From IMG/VR virus record IMGVR_UViG_3300030119_000062, positions 1-48,953 of that record: a stretch of 48,953 bases of DNA; one strand, given 5' to 3'. This DNA comes from a virus. Below the pieces are notes generated by a model. That model did not search any database, was not told the origin of the DNA, and worked only from the letters and a program-made list of their open reading frames with translations. How positions within the stretch are numbered: position 1 is the stretch's first letter; each line of letters opens with the position of its first letter. The position numbers were made by a program, and so were the translations under genes. Shown here in pieces: positions 21,911 through 31,087 of this stretch.

Positions 21911-22395
21911 CTTTTAAAAAAGGCTATAGAAAAAAACGAGTGCCTAGACCTAATGATAGATCTAGTGTGGAAGGATATGATTCTAATTGGGAGTATCTTC
22001 TTCATACCAGTATATTAAAAGATTGGAGTATTCACTCTGAAACATTTGATTATACTGTTGATCATAAATATTACCCTGATTTTATTAGGCATATAGATGG
22101 AAAGAAGATCCTACTAGAAGCTAAAGGAAGGTTTTGGGATCATGCTGAGTATAGTAAATATACCTGGATTAAGAAGTATTTATCTGAAGATACTGAGTTA
22201 GTCTTTCTTTTTGCTGAACCTACAGCTCCTATGCCTCAAGCTAAAAGACGTAAAGATGGAACCAAGCGTACTCATTCTGAGTGGGCTGAAGCTAATGGGT
22301 TTAGATGGTTTAGTTCTCATAGTATCCCTAAAGAGTGGATAGACGAAACTTCTCAGTTAGAAGAAGATCCTGAAAGAATATTGGAGGTAGAATGA
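21829..22395 (+). CDS. Endonuclease I-like Holliday junction resolvase (T7 gp3-like)
   Basis: A 188-aa nuclease. After a 50-residue Lys/Arg/Ser-rich N-terminus comes the T7 endonuclease I pattern: SNWEYLL (Glu), HKYYPDFIR (Asp), KKILLEAKGRFW (Glu-x-Lys). These four groups form the metal centre that cuts branched DNA, so the enzyme resolves junctions and debranches concatemers. The ATG lies 82 nt inside the preceding gene, an unusually long overlap; no better start is seen. Stop overlaps the next gene by 4 nt. Confidence 0.88.
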   Translation: MGGEKIKTVNKSQAANKSRSKTRGNGIAFKKGYRKKRVPRPNDRSSVEGYDSNWEYLLHTSILKDWSIHSETFDYTVDHKYYPDFIRHIDGKKILLEAKGRFWDHAEYSKYTWIKKYLSEDTELVFLFAEPTAPMPQAKRRKDGTKRTHSEWAEANGFRWFSSHSIPKEWIDETSQLEEDPERILEVE

Positions 22396-22757
22396 GTAGG
22401 TGGCAGGATAATCTTCCTGAAACAGATATTAAAATAAGTATAGATAATGAGCCGCCTGAAGCATGGGATAGAGCTTATAATGCAAGTAATCGGAAGGAGG
22501 AAAAAGTGACAAAGGTTTTTGATGGCTCAATAGTAGAGGATAAAATTAATCCTAGCCATTACAAGACAGATACCATTGAGTGTATAGATGCTATTGAAGC
22601 TATGCTAACTCCAGAAGAGTTTATTGGATTTTTGAGGGGAACAATTATGCAGTATGATTGGAGATACCCTAATAAAAATGGAATAGAAGACCTTAATAAA
22701 AGTCAGTGGTATAGGGACAAACTATTAGTTAAAGAAAAAAATAAAACCCCTACCTAA
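22392..22757 (+). CDS. DUF3310 protein (T7 gp1.7-like nucleotide kinase family)
   Basis: A 121-aa protein with the DUF3310 core at about 50-115: KINPSHYKTDTIECIDAIEA, then GFLRGTIMQYDWRYPNKNGIEDL. In T7, the member gp1.7 phosphorylates dGMP/dTMP. The first 38 codons are a variable lead-in; at codon 39 (22506) a GTG start follows AAGGAGG by 5 nt, so a shorter product of 83 aa containing the whole core may be made from inside. GGAGG also precedes the first ATG. A hairpin spans the stop. Confidence 0.85.
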   Translation: MSRWQDNLPETDIKISIDNEPPEAWDRAYNASNRKEEKVTKVFDGSIVEDKINPSHYKTDTIECIDAIEAMLTPEEFIGFLRGTIMQYDWRYPNKNGIEDLNKSQWYRDKLLVKEKNKTPT

Positions 22758-22807
22758 CTCGCATATCGTGTTAGAACTCTTAGTTAATAAAAGATAGGGG
22801 ATTTATT
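22740..22807 (+). other. Branched hairpin over the end of the DUF3310 gene
   Basis: Arms 22740-22752 and 22795-22807 pair over 13 positions with one mismatch. Inside, CTAAC/GTTAG and AACT/AGTT form two smaller hairpins, giving a multibranch fold. No T-run follows, so this looks more like a processing or termination-anti-termination element than a simple terminator; it leads directly into the structured segment that follows. Confidence 0.5.
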
Positions 22808-22829
22808 TAGGGCGCAAAGAGTAACAAAG

Positions 22830-22978
22830 CTGTTGCGGGATGTCTAGTTCGTACATGGCTAGATGATCTCCTTGGTCGGTGAGTGGCAGCATCGATGCAA
22901 AAGATAAGATGAAGTATGGCGCAACAGACCTTAATGTATGTAGGTTCATTAACCATCAATCTTATCAACTGCCACACC
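22830..22978 (+). ncRNA. Candidate pseudoknotted structured RNA
   Basis: Helices: GGT plus GTGGCAG (22878-22880, 22883-22889) with CTGCCAC plus ACC (22969-22978); GATAAGAT (22903-22910) with ATCTTATC (22959-22966); ATGG/CCAT (22916-22919 with 22953-22956); TTAATG/CATTAA (22931-22936 with 22947-22952). Bases CGCAACAG (22920-22927), inside these, match CTGTTGCG (22830-22837) outside them, making an 8-bp crossing helix. A small hairpin ATGT/ACAT lies between. It ends 11 nt before the AAAGGAG site of the 67-aa gene, so it may be its regulatory leader or a separate RNA. I recognise no known class. Confidence 0.6.
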
Positions 22979-23000
22979 TATTAACTTAAAGGAGAGATAT

Positions 23001-23204
23001 ATGTCATTTTTTAGTTGGCTTAAAAAATTATTTACCGAACCTGTCATTAAAGAAAAAGCAGAAGCTGTTGTTGAAGAAGTAAAGAACACTGTGTCTGAAG
23101 GCATTGACGAAATTAAAGATAAAAGAAAAAGAGCTAGAGATAATAAAGGTAGGTTTATTGCTGATGACCCTGATACCAAAAAGAATGAAGCCTATAAAGA
23201 TTAA
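23001..23204 (+). CDS. Small amphipathic protein (67 aa)
   Basis: A 67-aa charged helical protein. The start MSFFSWLKKLFTEP is an amphipathic, possibly membrane-touching helix, the middle is Glu/Lys/Val-rich (KAEAVVEEVKNTVSEGIDEI) and the end has RARDNKGRFIADDP followed by NEAYKD. AAAGGAG stands before the ATG, just after the pseudoknotted element. I recall the 'NKGRF.ADDP' ending in other short phage proteins of unknown role. Stop and next ATG overlap (TAATG). Confidence 0.65.
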   Translation: MSFFSWLKKLFTEPVIKEKAEAVVEEVKNTVSEGIDEIKDKRKRARDNKGRFIADDPDTKKNEAYKD

Positions 23205-23263
23205 TGGAACTTATCTTCTGTATTGGTTTTTTAAGTGGATACCTATTAGCTAAACTAACTTAA
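23204..23263 (+). CDS. Possible 19-aa membrane micropeptide
   Basis: A 20-codon frame coupled through TAATG to the 67-aa gene encodes a short, very hydrophobic peptide, MELIFCIGFLSGYLLAKLT, one membrane helix long. It ends at the last bases of the plus arm, overlapping the stop of the opposite-strand gene by 4 nt. No ribosome site of its own is needed if it is coupled. It could be a micro-membrane protein, or a chance frame. Confidence 0.35.
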   Translation: MELIFCIGFLSGYLLAKLT

Positions 23264-24430: not shown

Positions 24431-24634
24431 TTATTTATAACCTCCACCTTTCTTTTTATATTCAGAGGCCAATAACTGCGCTTTTCTCGCACTCCATTGT
24501 CCAGGCTTGCCTCCTTTTGAACCTGCTTTAATTCTATTAAATAGGTTCTTACGCATAGTAGGTTTGGTGTAATTACCTGCCTCGTTAACTCTACTCTTCT
24601 TTTTCTTTGTTGATGACTTCTTCTTTGCTGGCAT
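24431..24634 (-). CDS. DUF5872-like basic protein (67 aa)
   Basis: The ATG at 24634 is taken because GAGGA lies 5 nt before it, inside the overlapping o-spanin end. After a Lys/Ser-rich start (MPAKKKSSTKKKK), the segment GGKPGQWSARKAQLLASEYKKKGGGYK has the form I associate with DUF5872-type short proteins of phages and large algal viruses, whose function is unknown. Overlap with the spanin gene places it in the lysis operon transcript. Confidence 0.7.
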   Translation of the reverse strand: MPAKKKSSTKKKKSRVNEAGNYTKPTMRKNLFNRIKAGSKGGKPGQWSARKAQLLASEYKKKGGGYK

Positions 24635-25004
24635 CTTGTTCCTCATCTAGTTCTTTATAGTAAGTGATTATAGAAAGTACCTGACGAATGTATCTTTTAA
24701 TCTCTGCCATATTAATAGATAGATTCTCATACCCTGTAGGGCTTACACCATAGTATACATTAGTAGGTGCATTGCCTTCTTTCAAGTCTGTAAGGTACTC
24801 ATCCATAATAGCAGGAGTTAAAACTCTCCATTCTACAGGTCTGGTATTAATTCTATTGGGAAGAGGAGGATGATATACAGCAGCAGGTTTAGTAATAGTA
24901 ACTACTTCTACTGCCTTTACTTCAGGTGTATAAGGCTTGTTACCTATTAAGCTGCAACCGCTACTGGCTACTACTAACAGGAGTGGTAAGAGTTTCAAAG
25001 TCAT
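24591..25004 (-). CDS. Outer-membrane spanin / lipoprotein (Rz1-like)
   Basis: A 137-aa lipoprotein: MTLKLLPLLLVVASSGCSL is a signal peptide with lipobox VASSGC, so Cys17 is lipidated and anchored in the outer membrane. Near the mature start is a Pro-containing part (KPAAVYHPPLPNRINTRP) followed by a helical and acidic tail. It starts inside the i-spanin gene (44-nt overlap, different frame), the normal arrangement of Rz/Rz1. It would bridge the envelope and fuse membranes at the last step of lysis. Length is greater than most o-spanins. Confidence 0.72.
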   Translation of the reverse strand: MTLKLLPLLLVVASSGCSLIGNKPYTPEVKAVEVVTITKPAAVYHPPLPNRINTRPVEWRVLTPAIMDEYLTDLKEGNAPTNVYYGVSPTGYENLSINMAEIKRYIRQVLSIITYYKELDEEQDASKEEVINKEKEE

Positions 25005-25368
25005 TCAAGACCCCTTTAGTTCCTTTGTTAATAATATTTTCTATAAGCTTAGGCTTTCTTAAACTAAGCATATTCATATTGTGTTTATCAAATTTACTTT
25101 TAAGGTTATTAACTTCTTCAAGAGATTTTCTATTTTGTTCTTGTAGTAAATTAATCTTTTGGAATGTAATCTTTTTATCTTCTTCAGCCTGTAATATTTG
25201 TTCATTAAGACCTTTAATACTGTTCTCTAATAATAATTGATTATCTGCACATTGCCTTAATTGTAAGGCCATTTGTTCTTTTTCTGCTTCAGTTTTATCG
25301 TAGTAAAGTTTGAATGATCCTGCTAAAACTACTAATGCTACACCAAGTCCTGCAGTAATTTTCCCCAT
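24961..25368 (-). CDS. Inner-membrane spanin (Rz-like)
   Basis: A 135-aa protein with start at 25368, where AGGAG lies 7 nt upstream; upstream in-frame codons overlap another gene. The N-terminal KITAGLGVALVVLAGSFKLYY is one membrane helix, followed by a long periplasmic coiled coil (EKEQMALQLRQCADNQLLLE onward) ending in a polar tail. This is the topology of an i-spanin, which reaches across the periplasm to the lipoprotein encoded in the overlapping frame. Lysozyme upstream supports it. Confidence 0.72.
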   Translation of the reverse strand: MGKITAGLGVALVVLAGSFKLYYDKTEAEKEQMALQLRQCADNQLLLENSIKGLNEQILQAEEDKKITFQKINLLQEQNRKSLEEVNNLKSKFDKHNMNMLSLRKPKLIENIINKGTKGVLNDFETLTTPVSSSQ

Positions 25369-25378
25369 AGAACCACTC

Positions 25379-25588
25379 CTACTTGTAGATGAATTGCTTG
25401 TTAGAAACCCTTTTAGGAACACAATAGGCTGTAATATTTTCTTGACGGTAGTAAGGTCTATCATTAGGACTCCATTTACCTTGCTCTATTGCACTTGCAA
25501 ATACATTGCATCTGTATACATCTCTAAATAACATTCCATTATCTGATACAACCTCTCCGTCTACAACTACTACTAATAAAAATGCCAT
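25379..25588 (-). CDS. Small exported protein in the lysis cassette (69 aa)
   Basis: Starting at 25588 the ATG overlaps the preceding stop as TAATG; an alternative ATG at 25594 adds two residues. MAFLLVVVVDGEVVSDNGML is a short hydrophobic signal-like start, followed by a polar part with two Cys (YRCNVFASAIEQG, AYCVPKRVS). The arrangement resembles the 60-aa exported protein at the end of the arm. Might be a small periplasmic factor or a pinholin-like peptide; no family recognised. Confidence 0.6.
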   Translation of the reverse strand: MAFLLVVVVDGEVVSDNGMLFRDVYRCNVFASAIEQGKWSPNDRPYYRQENITAYCVPKRVSNKQFIYK

Positions 25589-26139
25589 TAGCATTTATAT
25601 CTACCACATTTTCTCATGTTACGTTGACGTTCTTTAGCTTGTTCTAATCTTTGTTTAGCTGAATCAATCCTTCGTTCCATAACAGCTTCATAAATGTACC
25701 AACTTGCCCACCCTACAAAAAATATAGAAAAAACAATAAAGAGAACAGCAAGACGATCCTTCATTTTTTGTTGCCTTTCTTTACGTTTTTTCTGTATATT
25801 TTTTAGATATTGCTGATGATCCCTTTCTGATTGTTTACGAATACGCTCTGCATCTTTCCAAACATCTGACATTCCCATCATCATTAGATGGTCTTTAATT
25901 TTATTCTCTACAGCTTTGATTTCCCTACGTTTTATGGAGAGATCCATTGCTTCTTTAGGGGTCAGAGGACGTTTAAGTTTCTTTTTTCTTTCCCAATCAT
26001 CTAGCCTTTGAGCAGTATTACTGAATTTTCCTAAGAGTGCAGCAGCATCTTGAGCATTAGCCTTGCCCTCTTTAAAGGTGGATATAGTTTGGTTGATTGC
26101 ACTGATTGCGCTAGTGATTGCAGCTAATTCTGCAAACAT
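25588..26139 (-). CDS. Membrane protein of the lysis cassette (183 aa)
   Basis: A 183-aa protein with a helical, charged first part (FAELAAITSAISAINQTIST, then KREIKAVENKIKDHLMMMGM and WKDAERIRKQSE), one membrane helix near 127-147 (LAVLFIVFSIFFVGWASWYI), and a basic coiled tail ending in CGRYKC. The 'IK…E..LK.…..G…..W' middle recalls a widespread marine-phage family of unknown role. Its place right after the lysozyme suggests holin or holin regulator. Single long helix argues against a typical class I holin. Confidence 0.65.
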   Translation of the reverse strand: MFAELAAITSAISAINQTISTFKEGKANAQDAAALLGKFSNTAQRLDDWERKKKLKRPLTPKEAMDLSIKRREIKAVENKIKDHLMMMGMSDVWKDAERIRKQSERDHQQYLKNIQKKRKERQQKMKDRLAVLFIVFSIFFVGWASWYIYEAVMERRIDSAKQRLEQAKERQRNMRKCGRYKC

Positions 26140-26144
26140 TTACA

Positions 26145-26600
26145 TTATAGAGCTTCTAATCTTAGACAAAGACGTTCAGCCCTATCTCCTACTTGTGAGT
26201 GCCACTTGCTATCTCTAGCTTCGGCCCCTGCTAAAGACCAGTTGTGATCTTGTAAAGCAGCTATGTGTTTTAAGAACTTACTATATCTAGGCCTACCCAG
26301 GTTAAACATCATATTTACACAGACTTCCTGTACTTCATCAGGAAAAGATTCCCAAGTATCTTGACTAAATAATACTTCACATTCACTAATTGCAATAGCA
26401 AGATCATCTTTAAAGACTTCCCATACTCTATCTTCACTTACAGGAGTACCTATAGGCATATTACATTCGGGATCTGATTCTAGTATCTTATGCCCTACAC
26501 CAAATGTAGGCACACCTTCTGAACAAAAATAAGATTCATATTTAATGCCTTCATCTACCTTTAGTTGTTCAAATATATTTTCTTTAGAGGCTTCTTTCAT
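26145..26600 (-). CDS. Endolysin, GH24 lysozyme (T4-type)
   Basis: A 151-aa muramidase that cleaves the peptidoglycan backbone. The signature NIFEQLKVDEGIKYESYFCS then GVPTFGVGH gives E17, C26 and T32, the GH24 triad spacing E-8aa-(D/C)-5aa-T; the second position is Cys rather than Asp, as known in some active members. No signal peptide, so release needs a holin. The rest follows the family (VCVNMMFNLGRPRYSKF, W…WHSQVGDRAERL). It overlaps the 1496-aa gene by ATGA. Confidence 0.93.
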   Translation of the reverse strand: MKEASKENIFEQLKVDEGIKYESYFCSEGVPTFGVGHKILESDPECNMPIGTPVSEDRVWEVFKDDLAIAISECEVLFSQDTWESFPDEVQEVCVNMMFNLGRPRYSKFLKHIAALQDHNWSLAGAEARDSKWHSQVGDRAERLCLRLEAL

Positions 26601-29600: not shown

Positions 29601-31087
29601 GTAACTAGCCTATCTCCTATGGTATCTAAAAGATTTGTAATATCGCTCATTACTTTAGTAGCAGTAGTAGACTCTGATAAATTTACACCATCTCTAATGC
29701 CCCTAACTATTAGGTCATTCATGGATTGCTCTAGTTTGCCAGAGATACTATTTTGGATAGGATGCAATGCATCTTTAAAATTTACATAGTACCCACCTAA
29801 AGTTTCTTTAAATACTTCGCCAAAGTCTTGTTTATCGTATTCTCTTGGCCCTGTAAAAGATCTTTGAGCATCGTATCTAAACTTTTGTTGTAGACTTTTA
29901 GCTAAATCAGAACCTTTAGTAAAAGGATCTAAGACAGAAGCAGGTTTAAATATAGCCCAACTTCCATATCTATTAGCAAAACGACTTAAATTATAAGTGA
30001 GTGCATTATTAATTTGTTGGTTTGTTCTTCCTTCAAGCTCTGTAAACGTACCCTTAATAATGTCATCAAGTTCTTGATTGCTTCTTGTTCCTGCACCACC
30101 ATGTTTTTTATTAAACTCAATTACTTCAGGAGGTAAAGGTAAGTCTCTAGAAGGTCTTCCTTGAATTATATCTTCTGTCGTATCAGTAATATTAGTTTGA
30201 GCTGATCCAAATAATAAAGGCCCCTCTTCAGGAGTTGCTCTAGGATCTGTTTGTATTCTTACAAAATCCTTATCCTGCCCTTCACCTATAGATTCTCTTA
30301 ATCGTTTCTCTCTGGTAGCTTCTAAGTATCTATCACGGATTAAATCAACTTCAGATTCTTGTATGTCGGGTTTAGTAGGATCATTACTACTAATTGCTAT
30401 TCTTTCATCTACAGCAGTTTTAGCTTCTAACTCTAGTGCTTCTGTTTCTGTAACTTTTTTAGGATCTCTAGTTTTTATAAAGTTAGAAAATTTATGTCCT
30501 GCATAACCTATAGGAGCCATTACACCTGCACCAAAAGCAGTAGAACCAATTACTTCAGGAATAGATATATCATCAATTCTATCTATTTCTACATCTCTAG
30601 ATTGTTCTACAAAATTTTGAGTGCCTCCAAATGCTCCTCCAGCAATAGATGCTCTAATAGCTGTTTTAGCTGCAGTTGTCCCTGCAATGTTTCCTAATGT
30701 CAAAAATGTTTCAGGGCTAGTAAATATATCTATAGCATAGTCTTTAGTTGCTTCTAGTCCTTCTCCTATACCTTTAATCTCTGTTTTATTATTCCAAATA
30801 TCTAATAACTTAGCATAAGAGCGTTTAACATTTTCAGGAGCATTACGGATTGCAGCAGCTCTAGCAGCAAAGGTACTAAGAGAACCTATTTCATCCCTAA
30901 TAGATTCTGAGGGTTTAGAAATCATTTCTTTATCAGTCTCTTTTATACCTAAAAGACCTGTACCTGGAGCTAAATTTTCATTTAGATAACTATGAACTAT
31001 TCTAGATAACTCTTTAACTTCTGGATTAGCGTTAAATTCACTAACACTCATCTTTACATTAGGGTCATCAGAAACAAAAGCAACCAT
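26597..31087 (-). CDS. Giant ejection protein with C-terminal ADP-ribosyltransferase-like domain
   Basis: A 1496-aa, probably virion-packed protein. Residues 1-1050 are helical and soluble, without recognised domain, with a short hydrophobic stretch near 140-165 (TLGNIAGTTAAKTAIRASIA). Around 1240-1490 the sequence has features of the ART domain of phage polyvalent proteins: IYRGSS (R1248), GPHFGSS (H1271), LKQLGFDSIKYRNQVE (E1460) and SFILFEPEQYAIAYG. ADP-ribosylation of a host target such as RNA polymerase is known for other phage ARTs; here it is inference. Coupled (ATGA) to the lysozyme gene. Catalytic competence untested. Confidence 0.68.
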   Translation of the reverse strand: MVAFVSDDPNVKMSVSEFNANPEVKELSRIVHSYLNENLAPGTGLLGIKETDKEMISKPSESIRDEIGSLSTFAARAAAIRNAPENVKRSYAKLLDIWNNKTEIKGIGEGLEATKDYAIDIFTSPETFLTLGNIAGTTAAKTAIRASIAGGAFGGTQNFVEQSRDVEIDRIDDISIPEVIGSTAFGAGVMAPIGYAGHKFSNFIKTRDPKKVTETEALELEAKTAVDERIAISSNDPTKPDIQESEVDLIRDRYLEATREKRLRESIGEGQDKDFVRIQTDPRATPEEGPLLFGSAQTNITDTTEDIIQGRPSRDLPLPPEVIEFNKKHGGAGTRSNQELDDIIKGTFTELEGRTNQQINNALTYNLSRFANRYGSWAIFKPASVLDPFTKGSDLAKSLQQKFRYDAQRSFTGPREYDKQDFGEVFKETLGGYYVNFKDALHPIQNSISGKLEQSMNDLIVRGIRDGVNLSESTTATKVMSDITNLLDTIGDRLVTSGVINNKNEANYFPRLWKREAIKNNREAFERKLINSGEAKDAVEATEITNSMLDIANQLDEGASGGASFFYKRAFTKLKDNDFEEFLESDLNSVMLNYISQTSKQIAKREVFGVSNADEFVNFYVEGIAKQMAKAGKTLTKRDRQSILNVYRHATGEGLDSFGSAQGLIDTYSTLNRMAYLPLATVSSLTEILINVAKAGPTSSIKALGSALSESRKTIQDQTVDNLKQLTGKRSGLTEREAWRELQEFGMVLDPILMDTVERLSGSGIRNQKLSKANNVFFRATFLDQWTKFVQLASYKSGKDLITNNLKEINKVKGLSDSNRIRNMKEQLKELNVDIDEGLKWVDSGESIDDSFYKNIKRGAARYTNEVILNPTNESGLKPFLQAAPRTAILTQFLGYPVAFTNTVLKNAAKDMIRNPTQNAPKVLAAGLIMTEMARWTNWARTRGESEKYKSTEEIYFDAVQRWGGNGIVFDMMQRGSEAAKVYQDPVAGYASVLGPVGNDIFKLMRTGNLVRLMGEKIPGYGALGTLSPELKADYTEALSDANKLYKQKALELMGAEDKAEPLRPSYAEGGSVGPIVKNVANVIEEPQERINPYTGEPYDVTAGSFNMDIEDRNNPEDPLRRLGFVVGGAARVGNVIRGVVQSPLKNLLESRSEAYPNYKNLVAAESEKELTRLAQSPVGIPRVVEEVLRKKTPQRLREVLETEFSPTEKLALEKILKKVPMVGPGKVKTMSKEEHTKYSLVKRPIYRGSSTGLNTSFDFRFSNPLEIGPHFGSSIQAQQIINHDAVQKAKYLKMIGKNDYITPNSLAAGKQDKRGRFAYVVESYDEPVSMTKGYIDIRSPLIFDQEIATTFDDLRPQWSAINVFKDPEAYEIITQQAMSKVGSNNKSNIKIGDLVNGLNGFNEKIDQFYRYFEKAVKANRSKIGKTFNIEIHEANLNLEFVKMLKQLGFDSIKYRNQVETLAKDRTKKGVMSEKEESFILFEPEQYAIAYGEKEV

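Follow-up and report, generated by a model that had tools for sequence, protein, structure and literature searches.

To our knowledge, only a few pseudoknotted leaders that control translation are known in phage mRNAs. The T4-type gene 32 leader carries a pseudoknot that serves as an autogenous translational operator (PMC3014915), and in Escherichia coli the pseudoknot of tisB allows translation from an RBS that is masked by default (PMC7708055). From cyanobacteria and marine metagenomes come the glnA / Downstream-peptide RNAs (RF01704), structured 5' UTR RNAs in front of short marine ORFs (17-100 aa) of unknown family, while the manA and wcaG RNAs are candidate cis-regulatory RNAs of marine phages, found in T4-like cyanophages with metabolic genes (PMC2864571).

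Comparison of homologous sequences supports a structured, pseudoknot-capable RNA upstream of a 67-aa gene in the IMG/VR virus record IMGVR_UViG_3300030119_000062, analysed here over positions 1-48,953 (the window, 48,953 nt). By function we are inclined to liken it to the translational operators of phages or to RBS-masking leaders. As in T4 gene 32, the pseudoknot lies in a phage mRNA leader upstream of the RBS of the controlled gene (the control being predicted in our case), and it is present in some related phages; the gene 32 pseudoknot was not seen in RB49 (PMC3014915). In T4, however, the pseudoknot is located 67 nt upstream, and the A+U-rich RBS behind it is unstructured and coated by gp32 (PMC3014915). 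Our element has several helices, its crossing helix is long-range, the Shine-Dalgarno (SD) sequence is predicted to be base-paired, and the target gene does not encode an SSB. An autogenous operator of the gene 32 type was rejected because the 67-aa protein has no SSB match, nor a confident match to any other family. With tisB the locus shares a 5' pseudoknot, a distant masked RBS and a tiny hydrophobic product (PMC7708055), but no antisense RNA was identified, there is no known toxicity and no sequence relation, and the hydrophobic peptide is encoded by a second gene. The position in front of a short marine ORF recalls RF01704, and the marine phage setting recalls manA and wcaG; unlike these, our element is without an Rfam match.

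Structure of the element

The first-pass annotation of this DNA had described four nested helices and an 8-bp crossing helix within 22830-22978. An exact check of the sequence found every block at the positions given (Table 1). The boundaries were drawn too narrowly: the folded RNA is about 170 nt long, with the true domain at approximately 22829-22995 and its 3' part reaching into the RBS. Beyond those helices we recognise the anti-SD/SD helix, a competing stem, the P4 hairpin and an overlapping hydrophobic ORF. At the 5' end the boundary is sharp, 3 nt past the stop codon of the upstream gene in L001-L003; at the other end a near-invariant linker of fixed length (AUUAAYUUAAAGGAG) leads to the SD.

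Table 1. Coordinates of the structured RNA, its helices and the neighbouring features in the window.
Feature	Position	Strand	Remarks
Terminator-like hairpin, AAAUAAA.CCCCUA ... UAGGGG.AUUUAUUU	22739-22808	+	Between DUF3310 gene and RNA; fold z -2.0
Crossing (pseudoknot) helix, 8 Watson-Crick pairs	22830-22837/22920-22927	+	Exact sequence
Crossing helix, 5' strand CUGUUGCG	22830-22837	+	7/8 pairs invariant
Crossing helix, 3' strand CGCAACAG	22920-22927	+	Invariant
Competing outer stem of hairpin A (22837-22841 with 22866-22870)	22837-22870	+	Conserved in 8 sequences, one broken cell
Hairpin A, 6 bp (22842-22847/22859-22864)	22842-22864	+	100% of cells paired; loop near-invariant
Anti-SD, UCUCCUU	22867-22873	+	Complementary to 22989-22995; 6/7 nt invariant
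Core (P2 + P3 + P3b + P4)	22878-22978	+	Every cell paired; compensated pair in P2
P2, 10 bp	22878-22880 and 22883-22889 with 22969-22978	+	GA bulge
P3, 8 bp	22903-22910/22959-22966	+	
P3b, 4 bp	22916-22919/22953-22956	+	
P4 hairpin, 4 bp	22928-22931/22942-22945	+	Not in the first-pass annotation
SD of 67-aa gene, AAGGAGA	22989-22995	+	Predicted mean unpaired 0.06 vs 0.32 with shuffled leaders (3/150 as low)
67-aa gene, presumed target	23001-23204	+	N-terminus looks amphipathic (MSFFSWLKKLF)
19-aa hydrophobic micro-ORF MELIFCIGFLSGYLLAKLT	23204-23263	+	Overlap TAATG with 67-aa stop; conserved among relatives
Rz-like spanin pair	24961-25464, 24591-25004	-	
Protein with hydrophobic segment	25588-26139	-	
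Endolysin, lysozyme-like	26145-26600	-	

The abundance of complementary blocks, earlier judged too great for chance, is borne out by shuffling: there are five perfect 7-bp blocks against a mean of 0.72, a number reached in 19 of 2000 shuffles. The strength of the crossing helix, calculated with explicit stacking energies, was reached in only 2 of 1000 shuffles, in a test run after the helix had already been pointed out. The pseudoknot is thus favoured by this test and by its invariant complementarity, while covariation support is absent, the helix being invariant in seven of its eight pairs. We infer that it forms in vivo and that two states of the leader interconvert. By eye, the loops of hairpin A and P4 might form a kissing contact, but this was discarded since it is not conserved in L018.

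The first-pass annotation had also held that a folding energy no lower than that of shuffled sequence would refute the structure and, taken alone, the nested MFE gave just this outcome (z -0.16, with 89 of 200 shuffles as low). We have therefore dropped the single-sequence MFE as proof of structure, and the case that the element is real is built on homology, that is, on comparative evidence.

Occurrence in related phages

IMG/VR was searched with the 67-aa protein and with three DNA patterns taken from separate parts of the element. The element is carried by the window and 13 contigs, giving eight distinct full-length sequences. It is complete in twelve of these contigs (L002, L005, L010, L017, L018, L019, L022, L023, L024, L025, L026 and L027) and cut by the contig end in the thirteenth (L130). 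In all 13 complete copies, window included, the 67-aa gene lies directly 3' at fixed spacing and on the same strand, and the three pattern scans found no copy of the element away from this gene. Six other records (L020, L021, L028, L129, L131 and L132) were rejected as carriers, their pattern matches being due to chance.

Seven records (L006, L007, L008, L012, L013, L014 and L042) have the 67-aa gene without the element, and the relatives lacking the RNA retain both the gene and its SD. In L001 and L006, which share the same SNase-like upstream gene (an assignment that comes from a weak Pfam match), the distance to the start codon is 174 nt with the RNA and 14 nt without it. The seven element-less records and this short gap indicate that the element is a presence/absence cassette. 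A compact leader naturally present or absent in matched relatives, within a phage group allied to the pelagiphages, would let the L001/L006 pair serve as a clean test of how streamlined marine phages time gene expression after transcription.

No resemblance to a described RNA class had been recognised from the sequence, and Rfam 15 agrees, with no match on the element: at the gathering threshold there were 0 matches in the window, and up to E 10 over 22700-23050 only three chance-level matches appeared, all upstream of the element. No tRNA or tmRNA was found. HDV-like, hammerhead and twister ribozymes, considered because of the layout of the element, were set aside as lacking Rfam support. Blastn with the element against INPHARED gave chance matches only, two patterns found no match in the GTDB genomes, and model R1 returned nothing convincing over 91 loci (779 kb) surrounding related genes for the DNA polymerase and the 67-aa protein (best E 1.5), nor over positions 1-26000 of HTVC103P. 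A second match within the window (30454-30510, E 0.09) covers 57 nt of the 149-position model and was judged to be chance. The element belongs to no curated RNA family and represents a new one, of a functional kind already known.

Selection on sequence and pairing

Copies of the leader are 86-97% identical, compared with 69-91% at the silent third positions of the adjacent 67-aa gene. Coding can be excluded, since indels of 1, 2 and 3 nt across the eight sequences break any shared reading frame; a coding or antisense ORF inside the element was ruled out on the same grounds. Of the 368 base-pair cells that the complete structure comprises, 367 are paired. P2 contains a compensated change from C-G to U-A (in L005, L018 and L022) with a U-G intermediate in L025, and two more of its pairs are G-C or G-U throughout all sequences. 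Hairpin A varies solely by purine changes opposite U.

Counted manually, the pair is kept in nine of ten one-step transitions within helices (a probability of approximately 0.01 at an expectation of one half, for changes that are not fully independent). Compensatory changes, the proof originally looked for, are represented by one compensated pair, and column shuffles reach the observed covariation score in 40 of 500 cases, which is only suggestive. With sequences this similar, covariation is weak evidence by itself. No variation occurs in P3, P3b or the greater part of the crossing helix, which therefore provide no covariation information. The comparison as a whole shows a real element under selection on both sequence and pairing.

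Predicted masking of the ribosome binding site

When the leader is folded together with the gene start and the strands of the crossing helix are held open, the best fold pairs the anti-SD with the SD in 8/8 sequences, and the resulting helix closes the whole nested structure. Opening the SD in these same folds costs 1.3-4.6 kcal/mol. Without holding the strands open L010, which has a C at the first letter of the anti-SD, favours another fold (probability of the SD helix 0.04). In seven of the eight sequences the SD is more occluded than with most shuffled leaders (0-6 of 150 as low), the exception being again L010 (18/150). The median unpaired value for the SD of 20 other genes of the window is 0.27 and about two of them are about equally hidden, so masking alone is not unique; partial masking is also predicted in relatives without the RNA (0.22 in L012 and 0.20 in L013).

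Part of the anti-SD (22867-22870), together with 22866, can alternatively pair with 22837-22841 and extend hairpin A. Variation in this competing stem keeps the pairs (G-U/A-U) except for one cell in L010, and the stem appears in the SD-free folds. If it formed, the anti-SD would be sequestered and the RBS exposed. An anti-SD with two conserved partners that exclude each other, as the folds predict here, is the layout typical of RBS-masking switches. Since the fold is predicted to hide the SD, the RNA is probably a switch for the timing of small proteins.

We consider it probable that the element is a switchable cis-regulatory leader that masks the RBS. It would be the 5' leader of a bicistronic message, encoding the 67-aa protein and an overlapping hydrophobic peptide of 19-20 aa, and would act in cis as a translational switch. 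In the OFF state the compact core P2-P3-P3b-P4, braced by the crossing helix, would be closed by the anti-SD/SD helix and the ribosome blocked; in the ON state the anti-SD would be drawn into the extended hairpin A and the SD exposed. Refolding might be driven by a phage or host protein, a metabolite, passage of the ribosome through the upstream gene or RNA processing. Among the points that count against this reading, relatives without the RNA manage without leader control, which is therefore dispensable, and the near-invariance of both SD and anti-SD leaves their pairing without support from covariation.

The first-pass annotation had offered two roles, control of the 67-aa gene or a separate phage RNA. 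The former is favoured, because the RNA merges with the RBS at a fixed distance, a scan found no terminator between the RNA and the gene, the SD is masked in folding, and the element was found only before this gene. A trans-acting RNA of about 150 nt, cut out of the operon transcript or transcribed from a promoter of its own and merely co-inherited with its neighbour, seems unlikely to us. Its compact fold with conserved unpaired stretches, the sharp 5' boundary and its gain and loss as a cassette, as for other accessory genes, would all suit such an RNA, but no promoter or terminator was found at the ends of the element in a scan, none of the pattern scans separated it from the 67-aa gene, and a separate RNA does not need the fixed-length linker to the SD.

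By analogy with tisB, the pseudoknot could instead be a stability or ribosome-standby structure in an activating leader, enabling translation from an RBS masked by default. The layout is similar: the pseudoknot is at the 5' end, the masked RBS follows over 100 nt further downstream, and the operon also encodes a small hydrophobic product; a single-stranded standby region was, however, not recognised and the conserved SD-freeing stem would be superfluous in a pure standby model, which makes this option quite improbable. Conservation might also reflect a function of the DNA (recombination, packaging or a protein-binding site) or recent exchange, as the great similarity of the sequences and the clear local mosaicism of L010, L023 and L025 could suggest. 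This is very hard to reconcile with substitutions that preserve base pairing in the RNA, with G-U pairs on one strand among them, with the strict orientation of the element to the gene and with the lower conservation of that flanking gene. Returning to the RBS-masking leader, it is rather doubtful that it represents a new class of signal-sensing switch (responding to a ligand, host factor or protein), known so far from a single marine podophage-like lineage and timing a membrane-active pair of small proteins, possibly linked to lysis. For a riboswitch in the strict sense no ligand suggests itself, and the 67-aa gene has no confident family match.

Downstream genes

Changes in the hydrophobic micro-ORF are mostly synonymous or conservative, in relatives with and without the RNA. 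It is conserved down to L013 (MELAFCLGFIAGYLICKLSI) and missing in L011 and L042. It is probably translationally coupled to the 67-aa gene, and the conservation of this overlapping ORF means that the leader may govern two products. That these are late or lysis-related small proteins timed by the leader is a guess. In L045-L047 genes for proteins distantly related to the 67-aa protein (36-38% identity) have a stop codon overlapping the start of the next gene, which by eye resembles a lysozyme gene, but the lysis cassette of the window (24591-26600) is on the minus strand, convergent with the leader operon, so the link of the 67-aa gene to lysis is only a hint. The distant homologues in L043, L045, L046 and L047 share a RARDRKGRYIKDDPNT / VRAKDCKGRFVADDPST motif.

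Phage context and upstream region

The terminase shares 66-68% identity with its counterparts in the SAR11 phages HTVC103P, HTVC104P and HTVC115P, a group with structural modules of the HMO-2011 type (PMC8528129). This kinship and a G+C content of 36% make a SAR11-type host plausible for this marine phage. The genes upstream of the leader form a replication module, and the region is a recombination-rich accessory spot.

The terminator-like hairpin upstream of the RNA is found in most RNA-bearing phages, not all (absent in L001-L004), with fold z values in homologues of -2.3, -2.4 and, in L005, -3.6; because of its long insert, a simple terminator scan did not list it. Its counterparts in L005 (3330-3400) and L018 (5180-5252, minus strand) have A-rich and U-rich arms around an insert that differs by phage. 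A similar unit seems, by eye, to be present in L008 and L012, both without the RNA, so the presence of the hairpin is not tied to that of the structured RNA.

Over the DNA polymerase L010, L023 and L025 have approximately 70-73% nucleotide identity to the window, compared with 90-96% over the leader. The DUF3310 gene (22392-22757) sits where most relatives have the SNase-like gene and, among those examined, is shared only by L010.
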